Assembly: GCF_004136015.1 (NCBI RefSeq)
Contig: NZ_CP024866.1
Coordinates: 1,241,236-1,305,235, forward strand
Direction of reading: 5' to 3'
DNA: 64,000 nt
Origin: Pseudomonas sp. ACM7
GTDB lineage: Bacteria > Pseudomonadota > Gammaproteobacteria > Pseudomonadales > Pseudomonadaceae
Position 1 is the stretch's first letter, and every line of letters begins with the position of its first letter. Positions 1 through 63,779 of this stretch are shown here, in pieces. The notes under the pieces were generated by a model. The model ran no database searches. It worked only from the letters and a program-made list of their open reading frames with translations, and was not told the DNA's origin. A program made the translations under genes and the position numbers.

Positions 1-3000
1 TCGGGCCGAAAAAGACTGAGAGCTGGCCGTCGATAAACTGTCGCGCCACAATCTGATGCGGTCCAACAGTCAGCACAGGCAGACGAACCGACCACATGCC
101 CTGTGCATCCACGATGGCGCTGGCTTCGACCTGCGTCAGGTTGTTGTGTTTATGCACATCGATACGGGCACCCGGCATGCCAGTACCGCTGATCAGTGGC
201 TGCACTTCGACTTGTTCGTTCATCTGCGGCCCGATAATGACGGGGCCTGGAAAATTGGCGGGTACCTGAACCACAGTCAACGCCTGATTCGACAGCCGCA
301 AGGCCGACGACACATCATCCCGGAGCTGACGAACAGAACAGGTAAACGCCCCTACCGGCAACGCTGCCGTGAAACTGGCCGTCCAACGCCCCTCGCGGTC
401 CACGAAACCACCGGCCAATTCGGTGAGGACGCCTGCTTTAAAAATCTGAACATACGCCCCTGGCACACCACTGCCCGACATCACCGGCTTGCGCCCCACG
501 CGGTCACCTGGCTTTGGATAATCGATCGTCGGTGCCGTGAAGTCCCTGGGCAATTTCTCCACCATAAAACGCCCGCTTTCGACCCGCTCCGATACGACGC
601 CCCCAGAGATTTGTTGCACCACGACCCGGCAAGCCCCCTCCGGCAACGTCTGCGAACTCTGTATCTCCCATCGCCCGTAGGCATCGGCAGTTGTGGACGC
701 CAGCACCTGCGCAGGGTTGAAGCAGGAGGCAACGGTGATCGCCGCCCCCGGCGTGGCCAGCCCCCGGTAAAACGGTTGGGCGCCCACCCAGTCACCGGCG
801 GCCGGTTCGTAAAGGGTCGGCCCGGCAGCGAGCAACGTCACGCTGGCGACACTCCAGTCCGACACCACGGCATTAAAGGTACTGAGTGCACGATACAAGT
901 AAGGATCTGCCCCTCCCAGCACATGGGTCAATTTGCCAGACCAGTAACCCTGCGGATCCACCACAAAACTACCGATGACCTCCGTGTAACCATCCCGCGT
1001 CACGCTCACCGTATCGCCGGGATAACCCGCCCCGGACGCCACTACCCACGCTGGCGTGACGAATTCGCCCCCGCTCGGGCTTTCGATCACCGGCGCATTC
1101 GGCACGACGGTGAACACACGATTGATACTGGGCCGCATCCCGCCCCTGTAACTCTGCTCGGCCACCATTGTTGTCGAGCCCACAGTCGGCAGGTTGACAG
1201 TCCGGCGCCATTGGCCATTCGCGCCCACCGGAATGTCGGATGCAATCACCGTGTTGCCAATCTTCAGCGTGACCGACGCTCCGGGTATACCGGTGCCCAC
1301 CACCTCGCTGCTGCGAGCAAACCGGGCATTGGCAGCGGGCGTGGTGATGACCGGCAACCCCACCTTGACGTTGAAGACTATCGCGGCACTGGGTTCGGAT
1401 GGATACGTCCCGAACTGTTGCACGACATAGATAACCTGCTGCCCCTCTTTCTCGAACTCCTTGTCGAGCTCAACCGCCCAGGCACCCGTGGTCGATACGG
1501 TCGTTTGCCCCAACACCTTGTTGCTGCTCGTTGCGTCGAACACTTTGATCGTGCTGCCCGGGAAAGCGTTCGTGCCCCGGACGATGAGTTTGAAACCCAC
1601 CTCGTTATTGTTCTGCGGGTAAGTAATGCCCGGCACCGGGGTTTTGACCGTGAAGGTGTGATCCTTCCAGGTGGATGCCTGTCCGCCAAACGTCGCTTCT
1701 ACCTGAACGGTGATCGAGCCGGGAGACTTCAGCGTGGCGTTAAAACCCCAATACCCTGTCGTGGCGTTGGACTTGAACGCGTGGATCTGCGCGCCATCCT
1801 TGTAGCGCACGACGACATCGGCATTCGGCCAGGTGGTGCCGTTGAACTCTGTCGTTAGCTCCACGGGCGCGCTGCCGGGTTTGGTGACGAGCGACGGGTC
1901 AGGTTTGATGATCAGATTGGGCGCTGTTGCCGCAGTGGACCAGACGTTGTTCATCAACTGAAAGACAGTGACCACGTAAGTACCGGGGGCCAACTTGGCA
2001 GTAGCCCTGACGGTCCACGTACCGCCAGCGGCCACATTTGCTTGCCCCAGAAGGGCATGAGTGCTGCCGTTGAGCCGGACTTCGATCCTGGCAGCGGCCT
2101 GCCCCGTCCAGACGTTGCCTCGCCCGGTGAACGTAGGGATCTGTCCGCTCAGAGTGGGAGTATTGAGGATCGGCTCGGGCGTAATCATCGTCACTACTGC
2201 CGTGGTCCAACTCGCGTTCTTGATCCGACCACCGATGCCGTCAGTAACGCTCTGCTGTGCGTCGAACGTGTATGGAGAGTTACGTGGCAAGAGACCCATG
2301 ATGTCCCTTGTCCAGCTTCCGCTTGAGGCATCGACATCCGGCAAGGTCGGCGCACTAGGCTGCCTGTAATGAATGTGGACCTTCGTATCCGCGCCCACAG
2401 CGTTATATGCCGTGCCTGACAAACGCACGGTGGTCTCGTTGGGGTACGTGACAGTGATTGGCGGTAACTGGGGGGGTCGGATGTTGAATCCGCGCGGAGC
2501 ACCTCGCTGTGACTGTTTCCCGCTATGGTTTTGTAACGCAACCAGAGATTGGTTCCCCGGGTCCACAGTGACCTGAGCGGTCCAGTTCGCACTCGTCAAC
2601 ACGCCACTTTCGCCGACCTTCGTGGTTCCCAAATCCTTGAATATCTCGACCTTGGCGCCGAGAAGCCCCTGGTTACCGGAAAGGGTGAACGTCTGGTTCT
2701 GTTGGCTACCGGAAGCAGGGGCGGCGATGACTGGAGTGCCCAGTACACGAAAGGTCAGTGGGTCGGAAAAAGTGTATGAGCCTCCCAAAAGATACCGGGA
2801 TCGCACAGTTATAACGCCACTAGGCAGACGCGGCGTTTCTTTGGCAGCAGCTTCCCAGAGTTTGGTCTCTTGGTCCGGCTCCGCAACGACGCTCACTACT
2901 TCGTTAAGGTCTTTCTGATTCACCACTGTGACGGGAAAAGTGAACAAGGAGCTTGTCCGGCCCTTGAAGACGATCTTATCGCTGCGCACAACTTCATTCG

Positions 3001-3734: not shown

Positions 3735-3977
3735 ACGAACGGCAAGCCCCTTCGCCAACTCATTCGCAGTGATTCTTCAGCAGTCGGCGAGTGACTACAC
3801 CGCCTTGCGTAACGGACTACAGATCCGCCAGAATCCGCCGGCTTGTGCGCCTTGGTATTGCCCCGTAACTTGATCCGCGTCGCTGCCAATCAGCGGCCGG
3901 GTTTAGTCGCCTGGGTAGGTATTGCGAAAGGTGCATAAGCGTCATCCAGTCGGGTATTCCCTATCCCCGCACTCGAT
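3735..3977. other. Intergenic region, no gene seen
   Basis: No convincing coding frame. The only pattern noted is the 10-mer GTTTAGTCGC near 3900, which recurs at 4064-4073 inside the leader of the next gene. The region should hold the promoter of the downstream DUF6124-type gene. Confidence 0.4.
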
Positions 3978-4108
3978 GGTGGCTGTGCGCAGGGCGCCCT
4001 CGGGCGCGCCGGTTTTTTCGTAATCCTCCCGGTCGACTAACCTGCGTACAGCCGCCACCCCTCGTTTAGTCGCGAGACGGTGGTAGCCCCATTAGAGGAT
4101 TTACGTTT
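3978..4108 (+). promoter_or_regulatory. Structured 5' leader, pseudoknot-capable, copy 1
   Basis: The leader can form a long helix P1 between 3978-3993 (GGTGGCTGTGCGCAGG) and 4041-4059, with a 3-nt bulge. Inside it is a hairpin GCGCC-CTCG-GGCGC (3994-4007) followed by GCC, GG and six T. A second helix pairs CGACTAA (4034-4040) with TTAGTCG (4066-4072); its arms straddle the 3' strand of P1, so the two helices interlock as a pseudoknot or exclude each other. The same architecture, with different helix sequences, precedes the gene at 50245-50496. The ribosome site AGAGGA follows directly. Inferred to be a cis-regulatory RNA; I do not recognise it as a named family. Confidence 0.6.
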
Positions 4109-4519: not shown

Positions 4520-4615
4520 ATCGCGAGCAAGCTCGCTCCCACAGGAGATCGTTGCTGGGCACAAATCTTGTGGATCAACACCGAGCCCCTGTGGGAGCGA
4601 GCTTGCTCGCGATGG
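4520..4615. repeat. REP doublet (REPIN)
   Basis: Two inverted REP copies, ATCGCGAGCAAGCTCGCTCC at 4520 and the reverse complement of the same unit ending at 4613, separated by about 46 nt. This is the typical fluorescens-group REPIN between two transcription units. Confidence 0.9.
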
Positions 4616-4638
4616 CTATCGCCAAGATTGCGTAGATT

Positions 4639-50496: not shown

Positions 50497-50630
50497 TTAC
50501 ATTTCCTTTTGAGGTGTGCGCCATCGATTCCCGATCTCACTCGAAGAAGAGGTGGCAGCTATGTGCAGGGTGAGATCACCGGCAAAAGGAACCCGGCCGG
50601 ACCGAAGTCCGCCCGCACACAGCCGCCATA
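50497..50630 (-). promoter_or_regulatory. Structured 5' leader, pseudoknot-capable, copy 2
   Basis: In the sense direction, helix P1 pairs 50627-50612 (GGCGGCTGTGTGCGGG) with 50569-50551 (CCTGCACATAGCTGCCACC), with the same 3-nt bulge as copy 1. The inner hairpin is GGAC-TTCG-GTCC. The second helix pairs GATCTCAC (50577-50570) with GTGAGATC (50540-50533), where copy 1 has CGACTAA/TTAGTCG: the sequence differs but pairing is kept. CCGGT precedes the first arm of that helix in both copies. Confidence 0.6.
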
Positions 50631-50844
50631 AAACATCGCTGACAGCCTCAAGCTGCCGGCAATTATGGAGGGCCTTGCACTGGTTTCCAATTGCTTAGTC
50701 TGGGATCTCACACCCGGTCGCAGATTTTTTCAGCGACCCCCAAAAGGTTATTGAACCCACTTCCTACGGGCAACCTGAAAACCTCGTGGGAAAGGTCTGG
50801 TTTTTTTACCGCTGTTTAAACGGGCGCATCCGTTGCCTGTGCGG

Positions 50845-63705: not shown

Positions 63706-63779
63706 ATCGAGTAGGAGGCGGCTTTACAGCCGCCGTCCTCTCACACCACCGTACGTACGGATCCGTATACGGCGGTTCA
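63706..63779 (-). mobile_element. Group II intron 3' end (domains V-VI)
   Basis: On the minus strand, right after the maturase stop, GAACCGCCGTATACGGATCC pairs with the following GTACGTACGGTGG to give a domain V-like hairpin, then GGACGGCGGC-TGTAAA-GCCGCC forms a domain VI-like stem and the intron would end at CCTACTCGAT near 63706. The order RT C-terminus, domain V, domain VI is diagnostic. The 5' end is outside the window. Confidence 0.75.

Follow-up and report, generated by a model that had tools for sequence, protein, structure and literature searches.

Multi-copy C4 antisense RNA cassettes in Pseudomonas carry two-part addresses that fit mainly their own small-protein genes

C4 is an antisense RNA of phages P1 and P7 and belongs to textbook phage biology, yet we found it in tens of copies per Pseudomonas chromosome, with addresses that point each copy to the neighbouring gene. 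Two such cassettes lie on opposite strands of the window, a stretch of 64,000 nucleotides of the Pseudomonas sp. ACM7 chromosome, and each comprises a predicted promoter, an upstream target copy (a1), the C4 RNA with its addresses a' and b', the downstream targets a2 and b2, and a gene for a small DUF6124 protein (Table 1). We consider it highly likely that these are domesticated and amplified cassettes of the c4-icd type, in which the processed C4 would repress the small protein encoded next to it and would itself be antagonised by the upstream target copy. What is new here appears to be the scale and the wiring of C4, not the RNA itself.

Table 1. Features of the two C4 cassettes, in window coordinates
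Cassette	Feature	Position	Strand	Details
First	Operator-like block CTAC-N4-CCTTGCG-N4-TGCCTAC	3795..3820	+	2 mismatches here
First	Predicted sigma-70-like promoter	3843..3871	+	TTGTGC 3843-3848, 17 nt, TAACTT 3866-3871
First	5' hairpin, predicted transcript start	3879..3897	+	
First	a1, upstream target copy TTAGTCG	3903..3909	+	Loop of a GGG..CCC-type hairpin; exact complement of a'
First	b1-like stretch	3921..3929	+	Pairs with P3 loop: 8 Watson-Crick + 1 G-U
First	C4 antisense RNA P1/P2/P3 (RF01695)	3972..4062	+	75.9 bits (Rfam cut-off 45)
First	P1	3977-3993/4041-4057	+	
First	P2 and P3		+	GCGCC/GGCGC and GCCGG/CCGGT
First	b', P3 loop	4013..4028	+	AATCCTC 4022-4028 pairs with b2
First	a', 7-nt address CGACTAA	4034..4040	+	Between P3 and P1 3' strand
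First	a2, downstream target TTAGTCG	4066..4072	+	Arm of the second helix of the sequence-only reading
First	b2 GAGGATT over Shine-Dalgarno	4095..4101	+	-14 to -8 of ATG (ATG 4109)
First	DUF6124 small protein, 123 aa	4109..4480	+	PF19619, 63 bits
Second	Predicted promoter	50745..50773	-	TTGCCC, 17 nt, TAACCT
Second	a1 GTGAGATC	50704..50711	-	Exact copy of downstream arm
Second	C4 antisense RNA (RF01695)	50548..50633	-	76.2 bits (Rfam cut-off 45); P2 CGGAC/GTCCG
Second	b' TTCCTTTTG in P3 loop	50583..50591	-	
Second	a' GATCTCAC	50570..50577	-	
Second	a2 GTGAGATC	50533..50540	-	
Second	b2 CAAAAGGAA over Shine-Dalgarno	50503..50511	-	-15 to -7 of GTG (GTG 50496)
Second	DUF6124 small protein, 83 aa	50245..50496	-	PF19619, 84.7 bits

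Both leaders were identified as C4 in an Rfam scan, with scores far above chance (E values of 4e-13 to 5e-13 with the whole window searched). Since RF01695 matches both, the RNA structure is not new; a sequence-only reading of this DNA, which had itself proposed a comparison with Rfam, had considered it a possible novelty. A new RNA family or riboswitch was ruled out on the same grounds. Between positions 3900 and 4200, C4 was the only match when riboswitches and other Rfam cis-regulators were searched up to E 1, and no Rfam family but C4 reached its cut-off in the second leader. A REP element or simple inverted repeat was ruled out as well, by covariation in three helices and by the address pairing.

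In the C4 plan, a long stem, P1 (17 pairs), encloses the hairpins P2 and P3; b' is the P3 loop, and a' is the 7-nt joint that follows P3 and precedes the 3' strand of P1. This Rfam-type structure forms 27 of 27 pairs in the first leader and 26 of 27 in the second. Inspection of the sequence bore out that two leaders with one common plan lie where the sequence-only reading had placed them, and that the inner hairpin, P2, differs between them yet stays paired; the 3-nt bulge that it had drawn in P1 is unneeded. Its CCGGT element is present, but had been recorded alone and is really the 3' arm of P3. The arms of its second helix do pair, as a' with a2, although this is the antisense-target pairing of C4 and not a stand-alone pseudoknot switch. 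Two elements had been overlooked, namely the upstream copy a1 and the ability of the P3 loop to pair with the Shine-Dalgarno region; the proposed switch between two folds is plausible as far as competing folds are concerned, but the competing partner would be a1.

The claim of a conserved, covarying structure was upheld by an alignment of the 30 C4s of this genome and the C4 of phage P1 (31 rows), which was built from sequence only. In this alignment, 16 of the 27 pairs were altered on both sides and 94.6% of cells were paired; none of 500 shuffles reached that number of double-sided changes or any of the five measures used, and slid structures paired only 35-45%. A model-fitted alignment of 80 loci selected by their protein was 99.0% paired, with 11 pairs changed on both sides. 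All 31 rows had an invariant GG at the base of P1, and the GGT at position 3978 is consistent with the RNase P site published in PMC5320573. Judging from the sequences, a conserved RNA structure very probably controls the small protein.

The a' address was compared with its targets in 130 loci, 30 from this genome and 100 from the genus, the latter hand-picked among the best matches listed and leaning to strong C4s. It was exactly complementary to a2 in 118 loci and to a1 in 119, and complementary at six or more of seven positions in 128 and 129 loci, respectively. Exact matches occurred in only 0.17% (a2) and 0.43% (a1) of non-cognate pairs with different a', and in 0.25% and 0.72% of comparisons with shuffled targets; over all non-cognate pairs, where many loci have a common address, the figures were 6.3% and 6.4%. 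Among the 80 protein-selected loci, a2 was exact in 67 and matched at six or more positions in all 80, while a1 was exact in 65 and matched at six or more in 79, the sole miss being masked upstream sequence. These loci are related and are not independent events, and the count of different addresses is therefore the safer measure. There were 29 different a' 7-mers over the 130 loci in a fixed frame, 21 of them among the 30 loci of this genome; merging frame shifts of 1-2 nt left 24 addresses overall and 20 in this genome. Fourteen of its loci had an a' 7-mer unique to themselves, three to four Watson-Crick pair types were seen at each a' position, and a2 started 1-8 nt past the C4 end.

The P3 loop supplies the second part of the address. 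Runs of at least seven Watson-Crick pairs joined b' to b2 in 95 of the 130 loci, compared with 5.4% of non-cognate and 1.6% of shuffled comparisons, and joined b' to b1 in 72 loci (3.8% and 2.0%, respectively), the latter being the weakest element of the plan; no clear b1 was found in the second window locus when complementarity to its P3 loop was looked for. Among 110 qualifying loci, defined by a start codon 40-62 nt past C4 and a b2 run of at least six pairs, the b2 run lay over positions -14 to -6 of the start codon in 103. Taken singly and in a strict fixed frame, a' matched a2 at 7/7 in 23 of the 30 loci of this genome, and 19 non-cognate pairs also had a 7/7 match in a'. A b' run of at least six told these apart: the two-part match was found in 20 of 30 cognate pairs, whereas none of the 870 non-cognate pairs had it. 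When six of seven a' positions and a b' run of five were accepted, 27 of the 30 cognate pairs were recovered, but also 23 of the 870 non-cognate pairs. At the level of sequence complementarity, these comparisons show that addresses and targets have varied in step, with each C4 matching mainly the gene that it precedes.

Upstream of a1, we observed a pattern of TTG, about 17 nt and TANNNT. In the 109 of 129 a1-bearing loci that were alignable on the first hairpin, TANNNT began 12 nt (70 loci) or 13 nt (32 loci) before that hairpin. With the promoter at a fixed place, transcripts should therefore start just before a1; a start downstream of P1, which the sequence-only reading would have counted against its own proposal, looks unlikely in view of the predicted sigma-70-like promoter. 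The position of the 26-nt operator-like block relative to a1 was likewise constant; the block was present in 30 of 130 loci and in none of 608 control windows, and in this genome it lay at a constant distance ahead of the promoter. All 12 of its matches in this genome with up to two mismatches lay before C4 cassettes (12 of 30; L001, L002, L004, L008, L012, L016 and L018-L023), and seven further matches with three mismatches were at control level. A regulator common to these cassettes may bind the block, by analogy with the C1 operator before c4 of P1.

Folding of full leaders gave a probability of approximately 0.90 for a'-a1 pairing in both window loci. Over 129 leaders, the mean was 0.51, with values above 0.5 in 72. 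The a'-a2 pairing exceeded 0.5 in none of the 129, and nested folding cannot show this pseudoknot, which is formed with P1. When C4 was folded alone, a' was unpaired (mean 0.92). For slightly more than half of the loci, the models thus support two states, one in which a1-b1 of the long transcript sequesters C4 and one in which processing has set C4 free. A T-run preceded C4 in 63 of 130 loci, compared with 9.7% of control windows, and in neither window locus. The candidate intrinsic terminator before C4 was rejected after folding eight loci of this genome, in which the folds were not clean terminators. Because of these unconvincing folds and the lack of a T-run, it is doubtful that the window cassettes make a short RNA of the IsrK type.

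The genome of this strain (6.60 Mb, one contig) contains 30 C4 matches, 29 of them over the cut-off. Among 59 Pseudomonas genomes, including this one, at least 54 had C4 and at least 53 had it over the cut-off; five gave no match at the filter used. At E up to 0.001, these genomes held at least 1007 matches (median 17, maximum 54). Stricter filters make these counts, and those for the class below, lower bounds, and a deeper search of the top-count genome found 55 C4s versus 54. Class-wide, C4 was present in at least six of 143 genomes (one per genus), namely the window genome and five others with 1-3 copies each, and DUF6124 was found in the window genome alone.

Within Pseudomonas, C4 accompanies these genes closely. 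We examined this genome together with three other complete ones, picked as single-contig and C4-rich. Of their 122 DUF6124 matches, 103 were preceded by a same-strand C4 no more than 450 nt away, compared with 0.2 expected at random places. The remaining 19, two of which were below the Pfam cut-off, had none, so the DUF6124 protein does not need C4. Over the 59 genomes, the C4 count rose with the combined count of DUF6124 and DUF3077 genes (Spearman 0.93) and was correlated with genome size (0.72). When loci were picked by their protein, C4 stood ahead of the gene in 80 of 80; these were the best 80 of 385 relatives, close to each other but with 60 distinct C4 sequences, and 25 of them adjoin sodB.

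Behind the 30 C4s of this genome, we found DUF6124 in 15 cases, DUF3077 in three, a Bro-N antirepressor domain in three and other small proteins in nine, of which five were scanned with Pfam and had no named family and four were judged by eye. Both window genes, which the sequence-only reading had assigned to DUF6124/DUF3077, belong to DUF6124 and neither to DUF3077. Scanning of 98 ORFs from the genus gave DUF6124 in 48, DUF3077 in 26 and Bro-N in five; L070 and L119 were excluded, as they had no 60-aa ORF before the contig end. An ORF of at least 60 aa followed 128 of the 130 C4s. The three chromosomal Bro-N genes (L005, L024 and L030) are of the classical kind of C4 target.

Six DUF6124 or DUF3077 loci of this genome had no listed C4 (L032-L037). 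An Rfam search up to E 0.1 revealed no hidden C4 in them, and a purpose-built C4 model found nothing beyond a 10.8-bit match in L036. L035 carries a weak c4-a1b1 match (770-821, minus strand, 24.2 bits) upstream of a DUF6124 gene without detectable C4 and is perhaps a decayed cassette. In L033 (G000:C1:473000-474400, 1043-1191), a gene that matches both DUF6124 and DUF3077 has no C4 and lies near the sRNA PrrF (RF00444, 156 bits). L001 is a broken copy behind the top-scoring C4 of the genome: its start-proximal DUF6124 frame is only 22 codons long, and a different frame encodes the domain.

The second window protein was predicted to be a helical hairpin of two long helices (mean pLDDT 81.3). 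When the DUF6124 model was searched against the PDB with Foldseek, the best E value was 0.95, so that nothing matched at the threshold of 0.001, and no sequence relatives were found in the PDB up to E 1. NCBIfam had no match for the two window proteins or for eight further proteins that were scanned. The first window protein matched nothing in 50,697 phage records, and a search of 72,556 plasmid records with the second gave a single weak match. The literature searched mentions DUF3077, and DUF6124 was not found there; the address rule of C4 provides a first handle on both families. Between C4 and the next ORF, several loci (L044, L050, L051, L057, L065 and others, as well as IMG/VR contigs) had a conserved leader ORF of 52-54 codons (..NPSKIRAAAHRAMALAALHANSSLATRLSRYNAH..) that overlaps the start of the latter; two copies of it were scanned and matched no PHROG or NCBIfam entry.

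The genes scanned on either side of the window cassettes are of an ordinary chromosomal kind (superoxide dismutase, GGDEF-EAL, LysE, pyruvate kinase and PilZ). At the sodB site, C4 adjoined the gene in 2 of 19 Pseudomonas loci; L219 ends 141 nt past sodB and cannot be judged. The gap between sodB and the GGDEF gene is 1401 nt here, and in 14 other loci it was 205-485 nt in 12 and 817 and 1026 nt, both without C4, in two. C4 copies thus come and go, since the sodB site is mostly empty. Elsewhere in the window, a Group II intron match (RF00029, 49.5 bits) was found at 63706-63777 on the minus strand, and REP-like palindromes (GTGGGAGCGAGCTTGCTCGCGATGG) were noted by eye near both cassettes, at about 4525-4620, 50870 and 51270.

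C4 also occurs in phages of Pseudomonas. Phage phiAH14b has a C4 scoring 89 bits, and PAJU2 has c4-a1b1 (57.4 bits), isrK (55.2 bits) and C4 (69.6 bits) directly before its annotated anti-repressor Ant. In IMG/VR, one C4 pattern picked out at least 120 contigs. From 80 of these we took 85 C4 matches, and we analysed the 79 that remained once six weak or truncated ones were set aside. The gene behind them, typed by home-made profiles on contigs that may show phage genes or host flanks, was DUF6124-like in 28, DUF3077-like in 24, both in one, Bro-N-like in four and none of these kinds in 22; the a' 7-mer of 57 of the 79 is also present in this genome. The natural reading is that C4 would have been domesticated from a phage.

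On the preferred reading, the cassette would work much as immI of P1 does, with promoter, a1-b1, C4, a2-b2 and the small ORF on one transcript. RNase P would release C4 by cutting the transcript at the GG that begins P1, as suggested by the cleavage site described in PMC5320573. Two addresses would be exposed as single strands in free C4, namely the 7-8 nt of a' next to P3 and the P3 loop, b', which could then bind a2 and b2 on another copy of its own mRNA and cover the Shine-Dalgarno sequence. By complementarity and by analogy with P1, translation of DUF6124 would thereby be blocked. As long as the transcript is not processed, or if a short RNA were made by termination, as with IsrK of Salmonella, a1-b1 would instead bind a' and b' and inactivate C4. 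Since a1-b1 would take C4 out of action, it would serve as a built-in antidote; this is the least certain step, with which folding agrees in the above 72 of 129 loci only. In Pseudomonas, the module has multiplied to tens of copies, whose addresses have, at sequence level, shifted along with their targets.

Four other explanations were considered. The RNA might be a purely cis-acting leader, in which a' and a2 form a pseudoknot within their own transcript and a ligand or temperature perhaps chooses the fold. Such pairing is sterically conceivable with a2 only 1-8 nt past C4, and the whole window leaders fold better than their shuffles (z -4.4 and -2.5). Nevertheless, the RNA matches a family known to act in trans, a1 is kept as strongly as a2 though it would be superfluous to a cis pseudoknot, the address is variable (29 7-mers, or 24 after merging), unlike a conserved ligand pocket, and the P3 loop matches the ribosome site too in most loci; we regard this explanation as very improbable. 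It is still harder to believe that the cassettes are functionless debris spread via prophages or repeats. C4 is phage-borne elsewhere, the sodB site is empty in most genomes and the start-proximal frame of L001 closes after 22 codons, all of which would fit, but debris would not account for the compensatory changes seen both in the stems and in the addresses, the constant position of the promoter, an ORF of at least 60 aa after nearly every C4 (128 of 130) or the ordinary chromosomal genes scanned beside the window loci.

An antisense RNA over a small ORF, in many copies and with a patchy distribution (the sodB site being filled in 2 of 19), also recalls a type I toxin-antitoxin pair, in which the small protein would be toxic and C4 its RNA antitoxin; many toxins of this type enter membranes. 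Icd of P1, the first ORF behind the P1 C4, inhibits growth and Z-ring formation according to PMC11897509. The 19 of 122 DUF6124 matches without C4 and the predicted fold, a plain helical hairpin, speak against such a pair, which we think rather improbable. A somewhat better but still low chance is given to an anti-phage guard, in which C4s would silence antirepressor mRNAs of incoming phages that bear the same address and the small gene would be a passenger or decoy. This is favoured by the full a1b1 and C4 plan before Ant in PAJU2 and by the address 7-mers that IMG/VR C4s share with this genome, although common 7-mers may reflect shared descent only; superinfection immunity was suggested for Acinetobacter in PMC5320573. 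It is disfavoured by the matching target that the cassettes retain alongside, with a strict two-part match in 20 of 30 cognate and in no non-cognate pairs. Repression of the neighbouring small protein by its own C4 is the explanation that we retain. Our wider proposal is more tentative, and its chances are a little short of even: that Pseudomonas holds a bank of tens of largely orthogonal, two-part-address C4 switches with their own decoys, controlling a superfamily of small helical proteins. A circuit that serves immunity in phages would then have been domesticated, and would act throughout the host as an array for regulation or against phages. The address rule would make the C4s a ready natural collection of antisense switches, largely orthogonal to one another.

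The closest known system is c4-icd-ant (immI) of phages P1 and P7. The P1 record annotates a1, b1, C4, a2, b2 and icd in that order, with the a1/b1 pair upstream of C4, a2 just behind it and b2 at the icd ribosome site, and RF01695 also recognises the C4 of P1, at 68.8 bits. The order a1-b1, C4, a2-b2 over a ribosome site and small ORF is thus common to both, and the second exact target copy typical of immI, a1, is present in both window loci. In contrast to the single phage copy before icd and ant1/ant2, there are about 30 chromosomal copies here, half of them before DUF6124; icd and ant genes were not found behind the window C4s, where DUF6124 stands in both. PAJU2 resembles the cassettes in having c4-a1b1, isrK and C4 in series, all over their cut-offs, but has its anti-repressor, and not DUF6124, directly behind. 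The c4-a1b1 model (RF03163, cut-off 46.7 bits) corresponds to the upstream a1/b1 element; it was over the cut-off in three of the 20 loci of this genome that were scanned (L001, L003 and L009) and below it in the a1 regions of the first (37.3 bits) and second (23.7 bits) window cassettes.

The isrK-orf45-anrP region of Salmonella Gifsy-1, as presented in PMC4825925, likewise has an upstream RNA partner, two competing folds and a leader ORF, orf45, coupled to the downstream gene anrP. The isrK model aligned slightly under its cut-off to L003, L009 and L014, and in L015 and L016, the loci of the two window leaders, Gifsy isrK (RF01394) was not found even at E values up to 1; unlike Gifsy-1, the window loci have no antirepressor behind. 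The CI RNA of P4, with seqA and seqC, is also a processed antisense RNA with complementary sequences on both sides, but acts on transcription termination; this likeness is one of description, as cited in PMC4825925.

C4 and c4-a1b1 are in the list of Weinberg 2010 (PMC2864571), the supplement of which may include Pseudomonas copies, and PMC5320573 cites that work for C4 in Pseudomonadales. Our search of the literature on C4 antisense RNA gave no paper on Pseudomonas or DUF6124/DUF3077 by title, which does not imply absence in print. The Group 1 C4-like sRNAs of Acinetobacter baumannii are similarly chromosomal and multi-copy, with 21 similar sequences, a variable a' and RNA-seq ends at GGW (PMC5320573). 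The passages of that paper considered here name no adjacent target gene and treat the upstream Region 1 hairpin as auxiliary, whereas in the Pseudomonas cassettes the target, the address pairing and the upstream copy have been identified.
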